Source of the DNA: a virus
Reading direction: 5' to 3' (one strand)
DNA: 22,737 nucleotides
IMG/VR virus record: IMGVR_UViG_3300034190_001393
Span: 1-22,737 of that record
The translations under genes and the position numbers were made by a program. Positions 6,575 to 15,917 of the stretch are shown here, one piece after another. The notes beneath the pieces were generated by a model, which saw only the letters and a list, made by a program, of their open reading frames with translations, was not told where the DNA came from and did no database searches. How positions within the stretch are numbered: the first letter of the stretch is position 1; each line of letters begins with the position of its first letter.

Positions 6575-6709
6575 TTACCTGCCGCGACCACCAGCGCGTA
6601 TGAGGACAATGCAGGAAACTTTATTCTCTTTAAGGAACTTAGAAGATCTAGGCAAATCCATAATATATCTTGACATATTCATCTTGATCGCTGATATGAA
6701 CCATGTCAT
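6575..6709 (-). CDS. Possible 44-aa ORF downstream of large terminase
   Basis: A short ORF overlaps the end of the neighbouring 44-codon ORF in another frame. ATG 6709 is preceded by GGAAGGAAAGG, a plausible ribosome binding site. The product ends with DLPRSSKFLKENKVSCIVLI then RAGGRGR. The beta-like VSCIVLI and the basic glycine tail look coding. An internal ATG at 6682 would give 35 aa. The overlap of more than 60 bp with the neighbouring ORF is unusual, so either one of them is spurious or the pair is one gene joined by a frameshift. Confidence 0.35.
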   Translation of the reverse strand: MTWFISAIKMNMSRYIMDLPRSSKFLKENKVSCIVLIRAGGRGR

Positions 6710-6782
6710 GTGGAACCTTTCCTTCCATCCAATGTTCTATTACTTTTTCAAAAAATTTATCTTCTAATCTCACTAAATCCAC
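6648..6782 (-). CDS. Possible 44-aa ORF overlapping the terminase 3' end
   Basis: This ORF starts with GTG at 6782, inside the last codons of the large terminase, and ends with TAG at 6648. The product is amphipathic and acidic (DKFFEKVIEHWMEGKVP, then HISDQDEYVKIYYGFA) and has protein-like composition. No good ribosome binding site is close to the GTG, so translation would depend on coupling to the terminase stop. I do not recognise a family. It overlaps the following 44-aa ORF in a different frame. Confidence 0.4.
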   Translation of the reverse strand: MDLVRLEDKFFEKVIEHWMEGKVPHDMVHISDQDEYVKIYYGFA

Positions 6783-8425
6783 ATAGTCTCGTCTGGCTCC
6801 CAATCTGAAATCCGTTCTTTCCATGATACATTCCTTGTGTTAAGTTTATCCCAATGTGTACGTAGTACCTCTGCACATATTGCTAGTGCAATTACAGTGT
6901 CATCATAACATCCTGGAGCAGCTTCGGTTTTCCCACTTGCAGTGGCAATGTAGTCTTTAAGCTCTCTTATAATAATCGGAGAGGGTATCATAATGTCTTC
7001 GTTATCTATGAGATTCTTTAAGTTCCCTATAATTACTGGTTTAGACGCAGATGTTGTTCTAAACCCTAGACGCATACCTTCTTCATTAGACACATTAGCC
7101 ATTTTAGTTTGTTTGTATAGATTTAAATATCCCATATGTTCTAGTTTCTGTAGAGTAGCAATACCCATTGAATTGGATTCTACTGCTAAGAAAGCATTGT
7201 TATAATATCTGCCTAGATAGAAAAGCAACTCTCCCCATAAGCTTGGGTCAATCCTATTGTTTCTATACACAGCTACAATCTCATAGCTATTGTTCATAAC
7301 AACAGCAGAACTGTAGTCTTGACCTACTCCTAGAGAAACATCAGCTCCTATAACATAAGGTTCTTCCCATCTAGGGTACTCATATATAGACAGATTACCT
7401 TCTCTGTTTTCATCAAACATTTTACTAGAGGGGTCCCACTCACTACGCCTTTGTTCTGGTCTAGGTATAAGAGAGTTTAGTCTATCTATATCAAAGACAT
7501 TAGAACCAGACACAATAAATGCTTCATCAGCTGTAGCAGGGTACTCTTGTTGGAATTTTATCTTACCACCTTCAGCAATCTTTAACCTTCTCCAGTAGAT
7601 TTGATCATTGTCTAGATCAAAATGCTCTACAAGTTCCTCTTCTTCTATAGTTAACTCCATTTCTTCAGGAGCTGTACGTCTATATTCATCTGTTATGTAC
7701 CAAGGTAGGAAGATTGGTAAGTATTCATTCTCACCTGCAACAGCACCCTTCCACAATCTGTAGAATTCTCCTTGAGCACCATTAGCTGTAGACTCAAGTA
7801 TTACTTCTGTACCTTTTGCTTGTGATATACCTTGGAATAAACCAGCAAGTATCTTCTCATCATGGGTCCAAAAGGCAATCTCTGAGAGATGTGCTATGGT
7901 TGGGGTAGTTCCCCTACCTGCTTCTGGAGATCCAGCTGTATATAGCCTGTAAGAGCCTACAGCATCTTTATCTTTATAAGCAGGTGATTGGATTTTAATC
8001 TCTTTAGCATTAGATGTAATTTCATTTGGTACTAAGCTACCTTCCATATTCCTAATAAGGTTCTTAGACATACTAAATAATGCATCAGAAGTAGCAGAAT
8101 CATGTGCCATAACTACAGATCTGGAATGTGGAGAGAAATAAGACTTCCAAAAGACCCTACCAGCACAATATGTACTAATGCCTTGCTGTCTAGCCTTTAA
8201 TATAATAGCTCTAACCCTACCAGTGTACTTATATTGTTCATCAAGAGCCTCTGTGATTTGTTTTTGACACTTATTAAACTTAAAAGGTACAAACCCTAGG
8301 CTAGTATCTTTAGTAATTATCTTGATTTGTTCTTGGGCAAAAGAAGAAAAGTCTTTTTCGTACCCCTTTAGCTTATTTCTTTTCTCTTTTTCTTTAAGAA
8401 GAGACATTATCTCCTTGTTATCCAT
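6773..8425 (-). CDS. terL: Terminase large subunit (packaging ATPase and nuclease)
   Basis: This 550-aa protein is the DNA packaging motor and headful or cos nuclease that docks on the portal. The ATPase domain shows a variant Walker A, KARQQGIST (residues 77-85), a Walker B region IAHLSEIAFW with the catalytic SE at 181-182, and the coupling motif ILESTANG (209-216). The RNase H-like nuclease domain shows D362 in IGADVSLGVGQD, E416 in FLAVESNSMG and D508/D509 in CYDDTVIALA, the usual three-acid metal site. Length is normal for the family. ATG 8425 follows AGGAGATAGAG. A promoter-like motif 25 bp upstream would start transcription toward it, making it the first gene of the leftward virion block. 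The portal follows about 0.9 kb downstream. Confidence 0.93.
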   Translation of the reverse strand: MDNKEIMSLLKEKEKRNKLKGYEKDFSSFAQEQIKIITKDTSLGFVPFKFNKCQKQITEALDEQYKYTGRVRAIILKARQQGISTYCAGRVFWKSYFSPHSRSVVMAHDSATSDALFSMSKNLIRNMEGSLVPNEITSNAKEIKIQSPAYKDKDAVGSYRLYTAGSPEAGRGTTPTIAHLSEIAFWTHDEKILAGLFQGISQAKGTEVILESTANGAQGEFYRLWKGAVAGENEYLPIFLPWYITDEYRRTAPEEMELTIEEEELVEHFDLDNDQIYWRRLKIAEGGKIKFQQEYPATADEAFIVSGSNVFDIDRLNSLIPRPEQRRSEWDPSSKMFDENREGNLSIYEYPRWEEPYVIGADVSLGVGQDYSSAVVMNNSYEIVAVYRNNRIDPSLWGELLFYLGRYYNNAFLAVESNSMGIATLQKLEHMGYLNLYKQTKMANVSNEEGMRLGFRTTSASKPVIIGNLKNLIDNEDIMIPSPIIIRELKDYIATASGKTEAAPGCYDDTVIALAICAEVLRTHWDKLNTRNVSWKERISDWEPDETMWI

Positions 8426-8446
8426 CTCTATCTCCTATGTTACATT

Positions 8447-8467
8447 GTCCCTATAAGGGACTTAGAG
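8447..8467 (-). promoter_or_regulatory. T7-like promoter motif driving the terminase/virion block
   Basis: Read on the minus strand this is CTCTAAGTCCCTTATAG followed by GGAC. The same 17-bp block occurs unchanged at 15917-15901 and with one change at 8776-8792. The TATAGGG end resembles the melting and start region of T7-type single-subunit RNA polymerase promoters (TATAGGGAGA in T7). Initiation at the first G would give a 25-nt leader before the ribosome binding site and ATG of the large terminase. GTCCC/GGGAC also forms a short inverted repeat here. No phage RNA polymerase gene is in the window, so recognition is inferred. Confidence 0.55.
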
Positions 8468-8506
8468 GATATATTGTAGTATTTTGTAGAGTTGTAGGTA
8501 TCTGTA

Positions 8507-8524
8507 GGGGGTTTTATAGCCCCC
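8507..8524. repeat. GGGGG/CCCCC hairpin in the control region
   Basis: This is a 5-bp all-GC stem with an 8-nt loop (TTTTATAG). It lies between the two leftward promoter-like motifs. There is no adjacent T-run on either strand, so an intrinsic terminator is not supported; a protein-binding or replication role is possible. Confidence 0.3.
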
Positions 8525-8588
8525 TTAAGAGCTTAAGGACACATGAGAATGACTTATTATTTTCACTATACCCTCTTATAATTCTGCA

Positions 8589-8610
8589 CCCCCCTATAAA
8601 TCTCTTAGAG
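8589..8610 (-). promoter_or_regulatory. Second leftward promoter-like motif
   Basis: The minus strand reads CTCTAAGAGATTTATAGGGG, with more G residues after it. It matches the other copies in CTCTAAG, in the five-base spacing and in TATAGGG, but differs in the spacer (AGATT instead of TCCCT). It points toward the large terminase, about 140 bp upstream of the 8447-8467 copy. Conservation of both ends with a changed middle supports a bipartite recognition site rather than a simple duplication. Confidence 0.45.
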
Positions 8611-8775
8611 GCTCTCTCAGTGATCTAATCAGCATAGGTACTGTGGGACTCCCTGAGACTCTTTAGGGATCTGAGAGGATCTCTAAGGAAGTCTTAAGGG
8701 GTGTGATCACATAGAACCTAGCGAGAGTAGTGGTGTACTGTAAGATTCTGTAAGAGGTACTGTGGGGATCACATT

Positions 8776-8797
8776 CTCTAAGTTCCTTATAGGGAGA
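8776..8797 (+). promoter_or_regulatory. Rightward T7-like promoter motif for early genes
   Basis: The plus strand reads CTCTAAGTTCCTTATAG then GGAGA, one mismatch from the leftward copies in the 17-bp block. The TATAGGGAGA end is identical to the initiation region of the T7 promoter consensus. It faces the plus-strand genes, the first of which starts at 8988, giving a leader of about 195 nt that contains the hairpin at 8922-8947. Confidence 0.55.
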
Positions 8798-8921
8798 GTC
8801 CCTTCCAGCCCTACCCTTAAGTTCTCTATATGTATAGTACATCTTATAGGAATCAAGTAAGATCAGATAGCTATAGTAGAACCTGTCAGGGTAGACACCA
8901 ACTTAGGTTCTTACTGTTTAG

Positions 8922-8951: not shown

Positions 8952-8987
8952 AGAAGAATTAATTATCTCTCTTGAAAGGAGAATCCT

Positions 8988-9286: not shown

Positions 9287-9361
9287 AATAAATTAAACTA
9301 GCAAGGGCAATTAAGGTTGCCTTTCGTAGTCTAATTTAACAACTCTTGAAAGGAGTAAACA
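9287..9361 (+). repeat. Intergenic module, copy A
   Basis: This is the first of three closely similar modules of about 75 bp that fill the gaps between successive small genes. Each starts AATAAATT(A/G)AACTA, contains a hairpin built on GGCAA/TTGCC (here GGGCAA, loop, TTGCC), continues with TAGTCTAATTTAACAACTC and ends in the ribosome binding site TTGAAAGGAGTA before the next ATG. It acts at least as the translation initiation region of the gene at 9362; the conserved hairpin suggests RNA processing or stability control. Confidence 0.7.
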
Positions 9362-9612: not shown

Positions 9613-9688
9613 AATAAATTGAACTAACAAGGGCAATCGAGGTTGCCTTTTCATAGTCTAATTTAACAACTCTTGAAAGGAGTATACT
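9613..9688 (+). repeat. Intergenic module, copy B
   Basis: This is the second copy of the repeated intergenic module. The hairpin is AAGGGCAA, loop TCGAGG, TTGCCTTT, and the TAGTCTAATTTAACAACTC block and the TTGAAAGGAGTA ribosome binding site are unchanged. It differs from copy A at scattered bases outside these elements, so it is an old duplication kept under constraint rather than a recent one. Confidence 0.7.
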
Positions 9689-10081
9689 ATGACTATTTCT
9701 GAAACAATGACACTTGTGAGAACAGCAAAGAAAGCTCTCAAAGAAGCAGAAGAACGTGAAGAATTGTGTCGTAAAACTGTCAAAAGACTGTTAAACGAAA
9801 TTCCTCACGAATGGGAAGACATAGCTGATGACTTCAATAACTTCTGTAATAACTCACTCTCTGTTATAAATGAGGACTTTGAAGATATCAGAGATCCAAA
9901 TGAAGTATTGAAGGACATAGAGGAAGCTGTTGACATAGTTATTAATAATGAAATGGCTAGATCTACAGAATACCTAGAGCAAAATGAATTAAATCTAATA
10001 GCATTAGCTAGATGCAATGCTTACCTCTCAGTACGAGATAGGTGGTTAGCAGAAATATGTGATGCTATAGAGAAACAATAA
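9689..10081 (+). CDS. Hypothetical helical early protein, 130 aa
   Basis: I do not recognise this protein. It is acidic and almost entirely helical in appearance. Residues 8-35 form a charged heptad-like helix (TAKKALKEAEEREELCRKTV), followed by acidic segments with DIADDFNNF-like and DFEDIRDPNEVL patterns. Two cysteines lie in unconserved-looking positions, and there is no membrane segment. The start ATG follows module B; the stop TAA lies within the beginning of module C. Acidic small early proteins of phages often bind host proteins or mimic DNA, but nothing here proves such a role. Confidence 0.6.
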   Translation: MTISETMTLVRTAKKALKEAEEREELCRKTVKRLLNEIPHEWEDIADDFNNFCNNSLSVINEDFEDIRDPNEVLKDIEEAVDIVINNEMARSTEYLEQNELNLIALARCNAYLSVRDRWLAEICDAIEKQ

Positions 10082-10150
10082 ATTAAACTAGCAAAGGCAG
10101 TTGCGATTGCCTTTCGTAGTCTAATTTAACAACTCTTGAAAGGAGTAAAT
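10077..10150 (+). repeat. Intergenic module, copy C
   Basis: This is the third copy of the repeated intergenic module. The hairpin has a perfect 7-bp stem, AAAGGCA and TGCCTTT, around an 8-nt loop; base changes relative to copies A and B keep pairing possible. The TAGTCTAATTTAACAACTC block and the TTGAAAGGAGTA ribosome binding site are the same. The module begins inside the stop codon of the preceding gene. Confidence 0.7.
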
Positions 10151-10789: not shown

Positions 10790-10823
10790 AGATCTTTTAG
10801 GGGTTCGACCACAGGGGCCGAAC
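10790..10823 (+). repeat. Palindrome and hairpin upstream of the SSB gene
   Basis: Two elements lie in a row. The first is the self-complementary AAAAGATCTTTT. The second is a hairpin with GTTCG (10803-10807) pairing with CGAAC (10819-10823) around ACCACAGGGGC. The sequence TTCGACCACAGGGG recurs at 15859-15872 and in altered form at 11510-11523. There is no T-run after the second hairpin, so RNA processing or a protein-binding site is more likely than termination. Confidence 0.45.
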
Positions 10824-10867
10824 TTCTAAAGAATAATTAATCTAAATCCATATAAAGGAATATAACT

Positions 10868-11458: not shown

Positions 11459-11621
11459 ATCCCCAAGGGGATACTATTTTTCAAAAGTCCTCAAGGGGAC
11501 TTTTAGAAATTCGCCCACGGGGGACGAATTTAAGAAGATTGCATCCTTCGGATACATCTATATTTTAAAAAGTTCCCTATCGGAAACTTTAAGAAGATGA
11601 AAAATCTCTTAGAGATTTTTC
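11459..11621 (+). ncRNA. Array of six tandem hairpins, possible structured RNA
   Basis: Immediately after the SSB terminator come six more inverted repeats with little spare sequence: ATCCCC/GGGGAT (11459-11472), AAAAGTCC/GGACTTTT (11483-11504), AAATTCG/CGAATTT with inner CCC/GGG (11507-11531), ATCC/GGAT with outer TG/CA (11540-11556), AAAGTT/AACTTT with inner CC/GG (11569-11590), and GAAAAATCTC/GAGATTTTTC with a 3-nt loop (11599-11621). Short purine-rich linkers, AAGAAGAT twice, separate them. No ORF fits. This may be a non-coding RNA, an RNA stability element, an origin region, or a binding array. The 412-bp gap between genes (11363-11774) is otherwise filled by the terminator, one copy of the 16-bp repeat and a possible micro-ORF. 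Confidence 0.5.
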
Positions 11622-15313: not shown

Positions 15314-15324
15314 AAACAAAAAAA

Positions 15325-15355
15325 ACCCCAGAGACTCACACGGAGTCTTTGGGGT
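15325..15355 (-). terminator. Intrinsic terminator for the minus-strand terminase gene
   Basis: ACCCCA-AGACTC pairs with GAGTCT-TGGGGT around ACACG with one mismatch. In the minus direction the hairpin is followed by a run of eight T residues (the A-run at 15318-15325 on the plus strand, which begins at the base of the stem), so it terminates transcripts of the small-terminase gene. For plus-strand transcripts the same hairpin is followed only by CTTATAAT, a weaker signal, but it could act in both directions between the convergent genes. Confidence 0.78.
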
Positions 15356-15368
15356 CTTATAATCTATA

Positions 15369-15436: not shown

Positions 15437-15829
15437 TTACACGATCCGCAAGGCTTTAAGTTTACTGTCAAGCTCTTCATCAGACAAAGCGTCTGTGCCA
15501 AGCTCTTCAATTTGTAATTCTCTGCGTTGAAGTTTGGGTTGCTCGTATTCTGCAACTTTAGCTGCAAGATCACTAGCAGTGTCAAAGTCTTCTTTTTCTA
15601 AAGCTTTAAACATGAGTATCTTCAAGACATCTAAGGAGTTCATATCAACATGATCAAGTACATCTTCCTTATATTTCTTCCAATCTCCCATACTCATCTT
15701 TAAGGCTTGTCTAGCATCACTAGATGCCTTACGAGATGCAGCAGATCTTAATTGCATTTCTTTAGCATTCTCCTTAGTGAATAGGGGAGCTAAATTCTTG
15801 AGACTATTAGGATGTGTTCCTTTGGTCAT
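15437..15829 (-). CDS. terS: Putative terminase small subunit
   Basis: This 130-aa protein has the layout of a small terminase, the subunit that binds the packaging site and loads DNA on the large terminase. It begins THPNSLKNLAPLFTKENAKE, followed by a basic helix (MQLRSAASRKASSDARQALK), a central oligomerisation-like region with DVLKILMFKALEKEDFDTA, and an end resembling many phage small terminases: LAAKVAEYEQPKLQRRELQI, then LSDEELDSKLKALR. It is the only minus-strand gene in the rightward half. A promoter-like motif at 15917-15901 and AGAGGTAATTAAT before ATG 15829 provide expression signals, and a terminator follows at 15355-15325. The large terminase is 7 kb away, which is unusual. Small terminases diverge strongly, so this remains a pattern-based call; a DNA-binding regulator is the alternative. 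Confidence 0.55.
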   Translation of the reverse strand: MTKGTHPNSLKNLAPLFTKENAKEMQLRSAASRKASSDARQALKMSMGDWKKYKEDVLDHVDMNSLDVLKILMFKALEKEDFDTASDLAAKVAEYEQPKLQRRELQIEELGTDALSDEELDSKLKALRIV

Positions 15830-15856: not shown

Positions 15857-15882
15857 AATTCGACCACAGGGGTCGAATTTTT
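15857..15882 (+). repeat. Perfect hairpin TTCGACC-type with T-run
   Basis: AATTCGACC (15857-15865) pairs perfectly with GGTCGAATT (15871-15879) around ACAGG, followed by TTT. It shares TTCGACCACAGGGG with the hairpin before the SSB gene. It sits in the leader of the small-terminase transcript on the minus strand and ahead of the gene at 15930 on the plus strand. On the plus strand the T5 run would allow weak termination. Confidence 0.5.
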
Positions 15883-15900
15883 AAAGAGAATAACTCCCTT

Positions 15901-15917
15901 CTATAAGGGACTTAGAG
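15901..15917 (-). promoter_or_regulatory. T7-like promoter motif for the small terminase
   Basis: The minus strand reads CTCTAAGTCCCTTATAG then AAGGGAG. The 17-bp block is identical to that at 8467-8451 ahead of the large terminase. Initiation at the final G would give a leader of about 72 nt that contains the TTCGACC hairpin and ends at the small-terminase ATG (15829). The pair of identical motifs would co-regulate the two terminase subunits although they are 7 kb apart. Confidence 0.55.

Follow-up and report, generated by a model that had tools for sequence, protein, structure and literature searches.

A 22,737-nt stretch of viral DNA (IMG/VR record IMGVR_UViG_3300034190_001393, positions 1 to 22,737), here called the window, carries several copies of a short motif, CTCTAAG-N5-TATAG. 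The question raised by this locus is what reads the motif. The original prediction was that four copies are T7-type promoters, served by a phage-encoded single-subunit RNA polymerase with its own specificity that lies outside the window. The exact pattern occurs four times in the window, at the four sites named in that prediction. With up to two mismatches, there are 15 matches against 3.5 expected, and none of 100 shuffled sequences reaches 15. The sequence CTCTAAGTCCCTTATAG is present twice (8467-8451 and 15917-15901, both minus strand), CTCTAAGTTCCTTATAG is found at 8776-8792 (plus), and CTCTAAGAGATTTATAG at 8610-8594 (minus).

To score these sites, a position weight matrix was built from 20 sites of four near-complete relatives (G001-G004), with the window excluded. 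This held-out matrix confirms three of the four predicted strings, those at 8776-8792, 8467-8451 and 15917-15901. It also identifies an additional site that had been missed, TTCTAAGTTCCTTAAAG at 6644-6628 (minus). After these four sites, the next-best match in the window scores 13.6 bits, and the maximum among 40 simulated windows is 15.7. The sites, named by their places in the relatives, and the first target gene are as follows.

8776 to 8798, plus strand: P1, predicted phage promoter CTCTAAGTTCCTTATAGGGAGAG; predicted +1 G at 8792; faces the early block, with genes from 8988 on; 38.2 bits.
8445 to 8467, minus strand: P2, predicted phage promoter CTCTAAGTCCCTTATAGGGACAA; predicted +1 G at 8451; 26 nt upstream of the ATG of the terminase large subunit (TerL); 34.2 bits.
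6773 to 8425, minus strand: TerL, the target of P2; matches phrog_2 (E 4.1e-30).
6622 to 6644, minus strand: P3, predicted phage promoter TTCTAAGTTCCTTAAAGAGAATA; predicted +1 G at 6628; follows TerL and points at the block that precedes the portal gene; 28.1 bits.
15895 to 15917, minus strand: P5, predicted phage promoter CTCTAAGTCCCTTATAGAAGGGA; predicted +1 G at 15901; would drive a probable small-terminase gene, opposite to the surrounding genes; 31.0 bits.

The consensus is TTCTCTAAGTYCCTTATAG(G/A)G, and the predicted promoter would extend from about -18 to +3, with the G of TATAG as the putative start. In the window, P3 deviates at the -2 position (TAAAG). The end of the motif had been equated with the T7 initiation region, which holds for the 8776 site, where TATAGGGAGA is found, but not for the remaining sites, which read TATAGGGACA, TATAGAAGGG and TAAAGAGAAT. 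The 8610-8594 match, proposed as a second promoter facing TerL, is rejected because its score of 10.2 bits is at chance level and it is not conserved beyond a near-identical contig (L008). Outside that contig, the aligned relatives mainly keep AG and a run of G in this region. The surrounding divergent intergenic region (8470-8770) is rich in AGAG and CTCT words, the relatives have runs of ACTGAGAGAT, and this region may serve as a replication origin. The aligned relatives also conserve a TATAG-containing block (8820-8840) that lies a few tens of bases past P1.

The window is a fragment of a marine podovirus of the CRP-7 type, with a genome of ~58 kb. Roseobacter phage CRP-7 (MK613349, 58,106 bp), whose TerL shares 63% identity with that of the window, is the only close isolate in the phage collection. 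The leftward arm encodes TerL, portal, scaffold and capsid proteins. The divergent rightward arm encodes SSB, ThyX, glutaredoxin, DNA polymerase, exonuclease and primase, and the window ends inside the primase gene. This divergent layout is that of the CRP-7 group, and the gene content is similar to that of CRP-7, in which an annotated T7-like RNA polymerase gene directly follows the primase. The CRP-7 polymerase matches the structures of T7 RNA polymerase and mitochondrial RNA polymerase by sequence.

The polymerase of the window's own virus is known from a near-identical contig, L127, rather than from the window itself. Over the last 1434 bp of the window, this contig is 99.5% identical; beyond that match it encodes a complete 764-aa single-subunit RNA polymerase, whose gene starts ~490 bases (about 0.5 kb) beyond the window edge. 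The main element of the original prediction, a polymerase gene outside the window, therefore holds. The polymerase family PF00940 was found in 8 of the 9 relatives reached through TerL, the ninth being a 30.7-kb fragment. The equivalents of T7 D537, K631, Y639 and D812 are conserved in the polymerase, as seen in the near-identical contig and the relatives. In Autographiviridae, the polymerase gene precedes the replication genes, within the early region; here it follows the primase, at the end of the replication block.

The sites are conserved across close relatives. In the four near-complete genomes, there are exactly 20 matches to CTCTAAGTTCCTTATAG with at most one mismatch, five per genome, and their places are identical. 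P1 lies before the early block, P2 lies 18-27 nt before TerL, P3 lies after TerL and faces the block before the portal gene, P4 lies 60 nt before a structural gene of ~584 aa, and P5 lies 73-75 nt before a gene for a 130-aa protein. In the window's virus, P4 would fall outside the window. A genome-wide scan, which had been suggested as a check, thus returned five intergenic sites per genome, each oriented toward its target gene, and no random placement. None lies within a gene of substance, and the few overlaps are with short unannotated frames. A short motif that is repeated, intergenic and gene-directed is what a T7-type polymerase-promoter system has.

Each place has its own record of conservation. 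The orthologous P1 site is found in G001-G004, G008, G010 and G011, and its core is nearly invariant among 12 aligned upstream regions; the P2 core is essentially invariant too. Among loci with a TerL at least 88% identical, P2 is present in 35/35 (with at most two mismatches) and P3 in all 31 that cover the place. As a control, the motif has five to ten mismatches in almost every 100-base stretch of the window. The orthologous P5 site stands before the same gene in G001-G004 and G011.

Related lineages, whose TerL is about 62-80% identical to that of the window, carry different, internally repeated motifs, largely at the corresponding places. These were found by repeat searches that did not use the motif of lineage A, the form in the window.

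Lineage B (TerL 79%): GTATCCGTCCCTTATAG, at P1-P5.
Lineage C (G005; TerL 80%): GTATAAGTCCCTTTAG, five copies.
Lineage D (G006; TerL 73%): TGTAACCCTTATGG, four copies.
Lineage E (L052/L053; TerL 70%): CACTTGGTCCCCTAWTAG, two copies.
Lineage F (G009, L063, L073; TerL 64-66%): AAATGTCYCCTTAAAG, at P1, P2 and P5.
CRP-7 (TerL about 62-63%): TATAGTCCMYTATTAAAAGG, five copies at 2028, 7149 and 14766 on the plus strand and 38262 and 57212 on the minus strand, one of them 10 nt before the polymerase gene.

The P5 place carries lineage-specific sites in lineages B, C and F. In the more distant lineages the places do not all coincide, and some sites of lineage C and CRP-7 stand at further or different genes. 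Twelve-base words present at four or more dispersed places number 16 in G001, 10 in G005 and 26 in G006, with none in simulated genomes; part of these words are gene-internal repeats, not promoters. CRP-7 does not pass this exact-word test, and its motif is drawn from five matches to a degenerate 17-mer. In two fragments (G007 and G016), the repeat searches for promoters found none. Across lineages, the positions nearest the start (CCTTA or similar) are most alike, and the upstream half differs.

The specificity loop of the polymerase, taken as the region aligned to T7 739-770, varies with the motif. Among enzymes of motif A, the loop is 97-100% identical versus 85-96% in the rest of the protein. 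In the two lineage B enzymes, it is 100% identical, with 82% elsewhere. Between lineages, the loop is 12-51% identical, below the rest of the protein in every pair compared. This pattern is as predicted if promoters are recognized through the loop; it is a correlation across six lineages, those with both motif and polymerase known, and the loop could instead be tolerant of change and diverge faster for other reasons. It is likely, with appreciable room for doubt, that the polymerase-promoter pair changed its specificity several times within this single family of marine phages. At least six distinct lineage motifs are found besides that of the window. All copies would have been rewritten in concert at largely fixed places as the specificity loop diverged. 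The outcome would be a series of pairs, possibly orthogonal to one another, that abandoned the CACTATAG core.

The lineage motifs also bear on whether the sites are operators, that is, near-palindromes (CTCTAAG-N3-CTTATAG) to which a dimeric repressor or regulator of the phage would bind, beside promoters of another type. The lineage A 17-mer is a 6-of-7 inverted repeat (CTCTAAG...CTTATAG), as an operator might be. Yet on one side conservation reaches about +3 (G, G/A, G), each site is oriented toward the gene downstream of it, and changes in the motif track the specificity loop of the polymerase. Operators are rejected as the main explanation because the sites of lineages B (GTATCCGTCCCTTATAG) and E (CACTTGGTCCCCTAWTAG) retain their places but lose the symmetry, and only a slender chance is left to them.

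The 17-mer is largely confined to this phage type. The exact lineage A form occurs in 91 stretches among 2.9 million viral contigs, and all of the 80 matches listed belong to this phage type, with the best match of their encoded proteins 80-100% identical. The motif could still be a promoter for a host sigma factor or another common bacterial element, since a TATAG-like sequence stands near the start and a phage needs host transcription early. However, the 84,980 prokaryote genomes (257 Gb) contain just 17 exact matches; three of these belong to contigs of this phage type, and none of the genomes listed is named Roseobacter. Sigma-70-like sites in the window are also below the shuffled expectation. 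The near-chance counts in prokaryote genomes lead to rejection of a host promoter, which is scarcely credible here. The phage matches L273, L278 and L281 (DNHN01000150.1, DNHN01000230.1) are filed under the Bacteroidetes MAG UBA10340, yet they are of this phage type; their TerL is 93-95% identical, and these contigs are apparently mis-binned. That the sites are chance matches of a short AT-rich word is probably true of 8610-8594, but for the other four, which stand at orthologous intergenic places in every close relative covering them and whose scores no simulated window reached, the idea can be dismissed as next to impossible.

The sites are thus very probably recognized by a one-piece RNA polymerase that the virus itself encodes, a reading drawn from comparative sequence evidence. 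With high confidence, the window belongs to a podovirus of the CRP-7 type whose T7-type single-subunit RNA polymerase is encoded just past the window's right edge, and the motif is the predicted promoter of that polymerase, with five copies per genome (four in the window) that would start its transcription units. The evidence is the conservation, placement and orientation of the sites, the polymerase gene, and the co-variation of the motif with the specificity loop; binding, start site, timing and feedback are predicted from these. Host RNA polymerase would most likely make the first transcripts of the early block, although no convincing host promoter to start this cascade was found in the window. 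The phage polymerase would then transcribe the replication block, including its own gene, from P1, and the packaging and structural genes from P2-P5. In this scheme, P1 would serve the early and replication block, P2 TerL, P3 the block before the portal gene, and P4 the structural gene outside the window, while P5 would start a one-gene small-terminase unit running against the surrounding genes. The polymerase gene closes the gene block behind P1, so this promoter probably boosts polymerase expression after host RNA polymerase has made the first copies. The CRP-7 site directly before the polymerase gene likewise suggests self-amplification.

Polymerase-promoter pairs of the T7 type are already known. 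T7 RNA polymerase and its promoters (TAATACGACTCACTATAGGGAGA) resemble this system in having a single-subunit enzyme with the same catalytic residues and promoters of 17-23 bp that end in TATAG, have a +1 G (here predicted) and face phage genes. P1 even starts with GGGAGA. The promoters of T7, T3 and SP6 have the CACTATAG core (-7 to +1) in common (PMC13029058). In the window lineage and in lineage B, this core is instead CCTTATAG, and the upstream half of the window motif is CTCTAAGTT. These are therefore not promoters of the T7/T3/SP6 group, though they appear to work like them. The window's phage type also differs from T7 in having only five sites, on both strands, and in the position of the polymerase gene after the primase. 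The polymerase is only distantly related to Autographiviridae enzymes, at about 25% identity or less (PMC6918029 and our own comparison).

CRP-7 belongs to the same virus group and has similar gene content, with a polymerase 35% identical, but it possesses its own repeated motif and a different specificity loop. Its polymerase has been described as distantly related to Autographivirinae enzymes, at under 25% (PMC6918029), and the word "promoter" is absent from the main text of that paper. The EM1 RNA polymerase and promoter are likewise a phage pair found from metagenomic sequence and distinct from T7, but the EM1 promoter TCAGAAGTCACACTATAA keeps a CACTATA core (PMC9596486), which the window's family does not have. 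A literature search that covered only a minority of subscription papers found the exact motif in no paper and no account of these promoters, and an earlier description is possible. What is new is a form without the CACTATAG core, with a series of lineage-specific forms.

From the sites follows a base-resolution prediction of transcription for a group of marine phages that occurs ocean-wide but has received little study. Related viruses each combine their own motif, at corresponding places, with a different polymerase, and so make up a natural series in which the evolution of such pairs can be studied. The multi-copy promoter and the polymerase appear to have changed together across lineages, so how a multi-promoter regulon changes its specificity without dying becomes directly testable. 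For orthogonal in vitro transcription, too, the lineage pairs would be candidates.

In the lineage B contigs L269 and L268, the polymerase gene is split by a group I intron (RF00028, 96.6 bits in L269, at 1154-1360 of that contig); these contigs are IMGVR_UViG_3300027833_000113 and 3300020185_000175. The insertion lies inside the catalytic motif DGSNNG/WQH, adjoining the equivalent of T7 D537.

The unit behind P5 is composed of a promoter, a leader hairpin, one gene and a terminator.

15437 to 15829, minus strand: gene for the 130-aa protein, the probable terminase small subunit and sole gene of the unit.
15318 to 15358, minus strand: intrinsic terminator ending the unit, a strong hairpin followed by T8 (-24.9 kcal/mol, z -5.1).

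This arrangement is conserved in five genomes, with the terminator 114-133 nt past the stop codon (131-133 nt in G001-G004). The original prediction had assigned the early block, the large terminase and the small terminase as targets, and the last has modest sequence support. The phrog_74 profile matches 4 of the 7 homologues of the 130-aa protein (best E 7.6e-5), with E 0.006 for the window copy, and homologues adjoin TerL in CRP-7 and G007. The protein is probably the terminase small subunit on the basis of this profile and gene adjacency. Its predicted structure is a low-confidence helical model (pLDDT 70, pTM 0.33), with which a search of PDB structures gave no match; this outcome speaks neither for nor against a small terminase.

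Other repeats are present in the window, in which an Rfam search found nothing. The hairpin TTCGACC...GGTCGAA occurs at 10804-10832, 11510-11538 and 15859-15887; the third of these lies in the P5 transcript leader and is retained in G001-G004. Three 73-nt direct repeats (9287-9359, 9614-9686 and 10077-10149) each carry CTCTTGAAAGGAG before an early gene. This leader word occurs four times in the window, the further copy being at 8970, and a similar word, CTTGAAAGGATA, occurs four times in G001.
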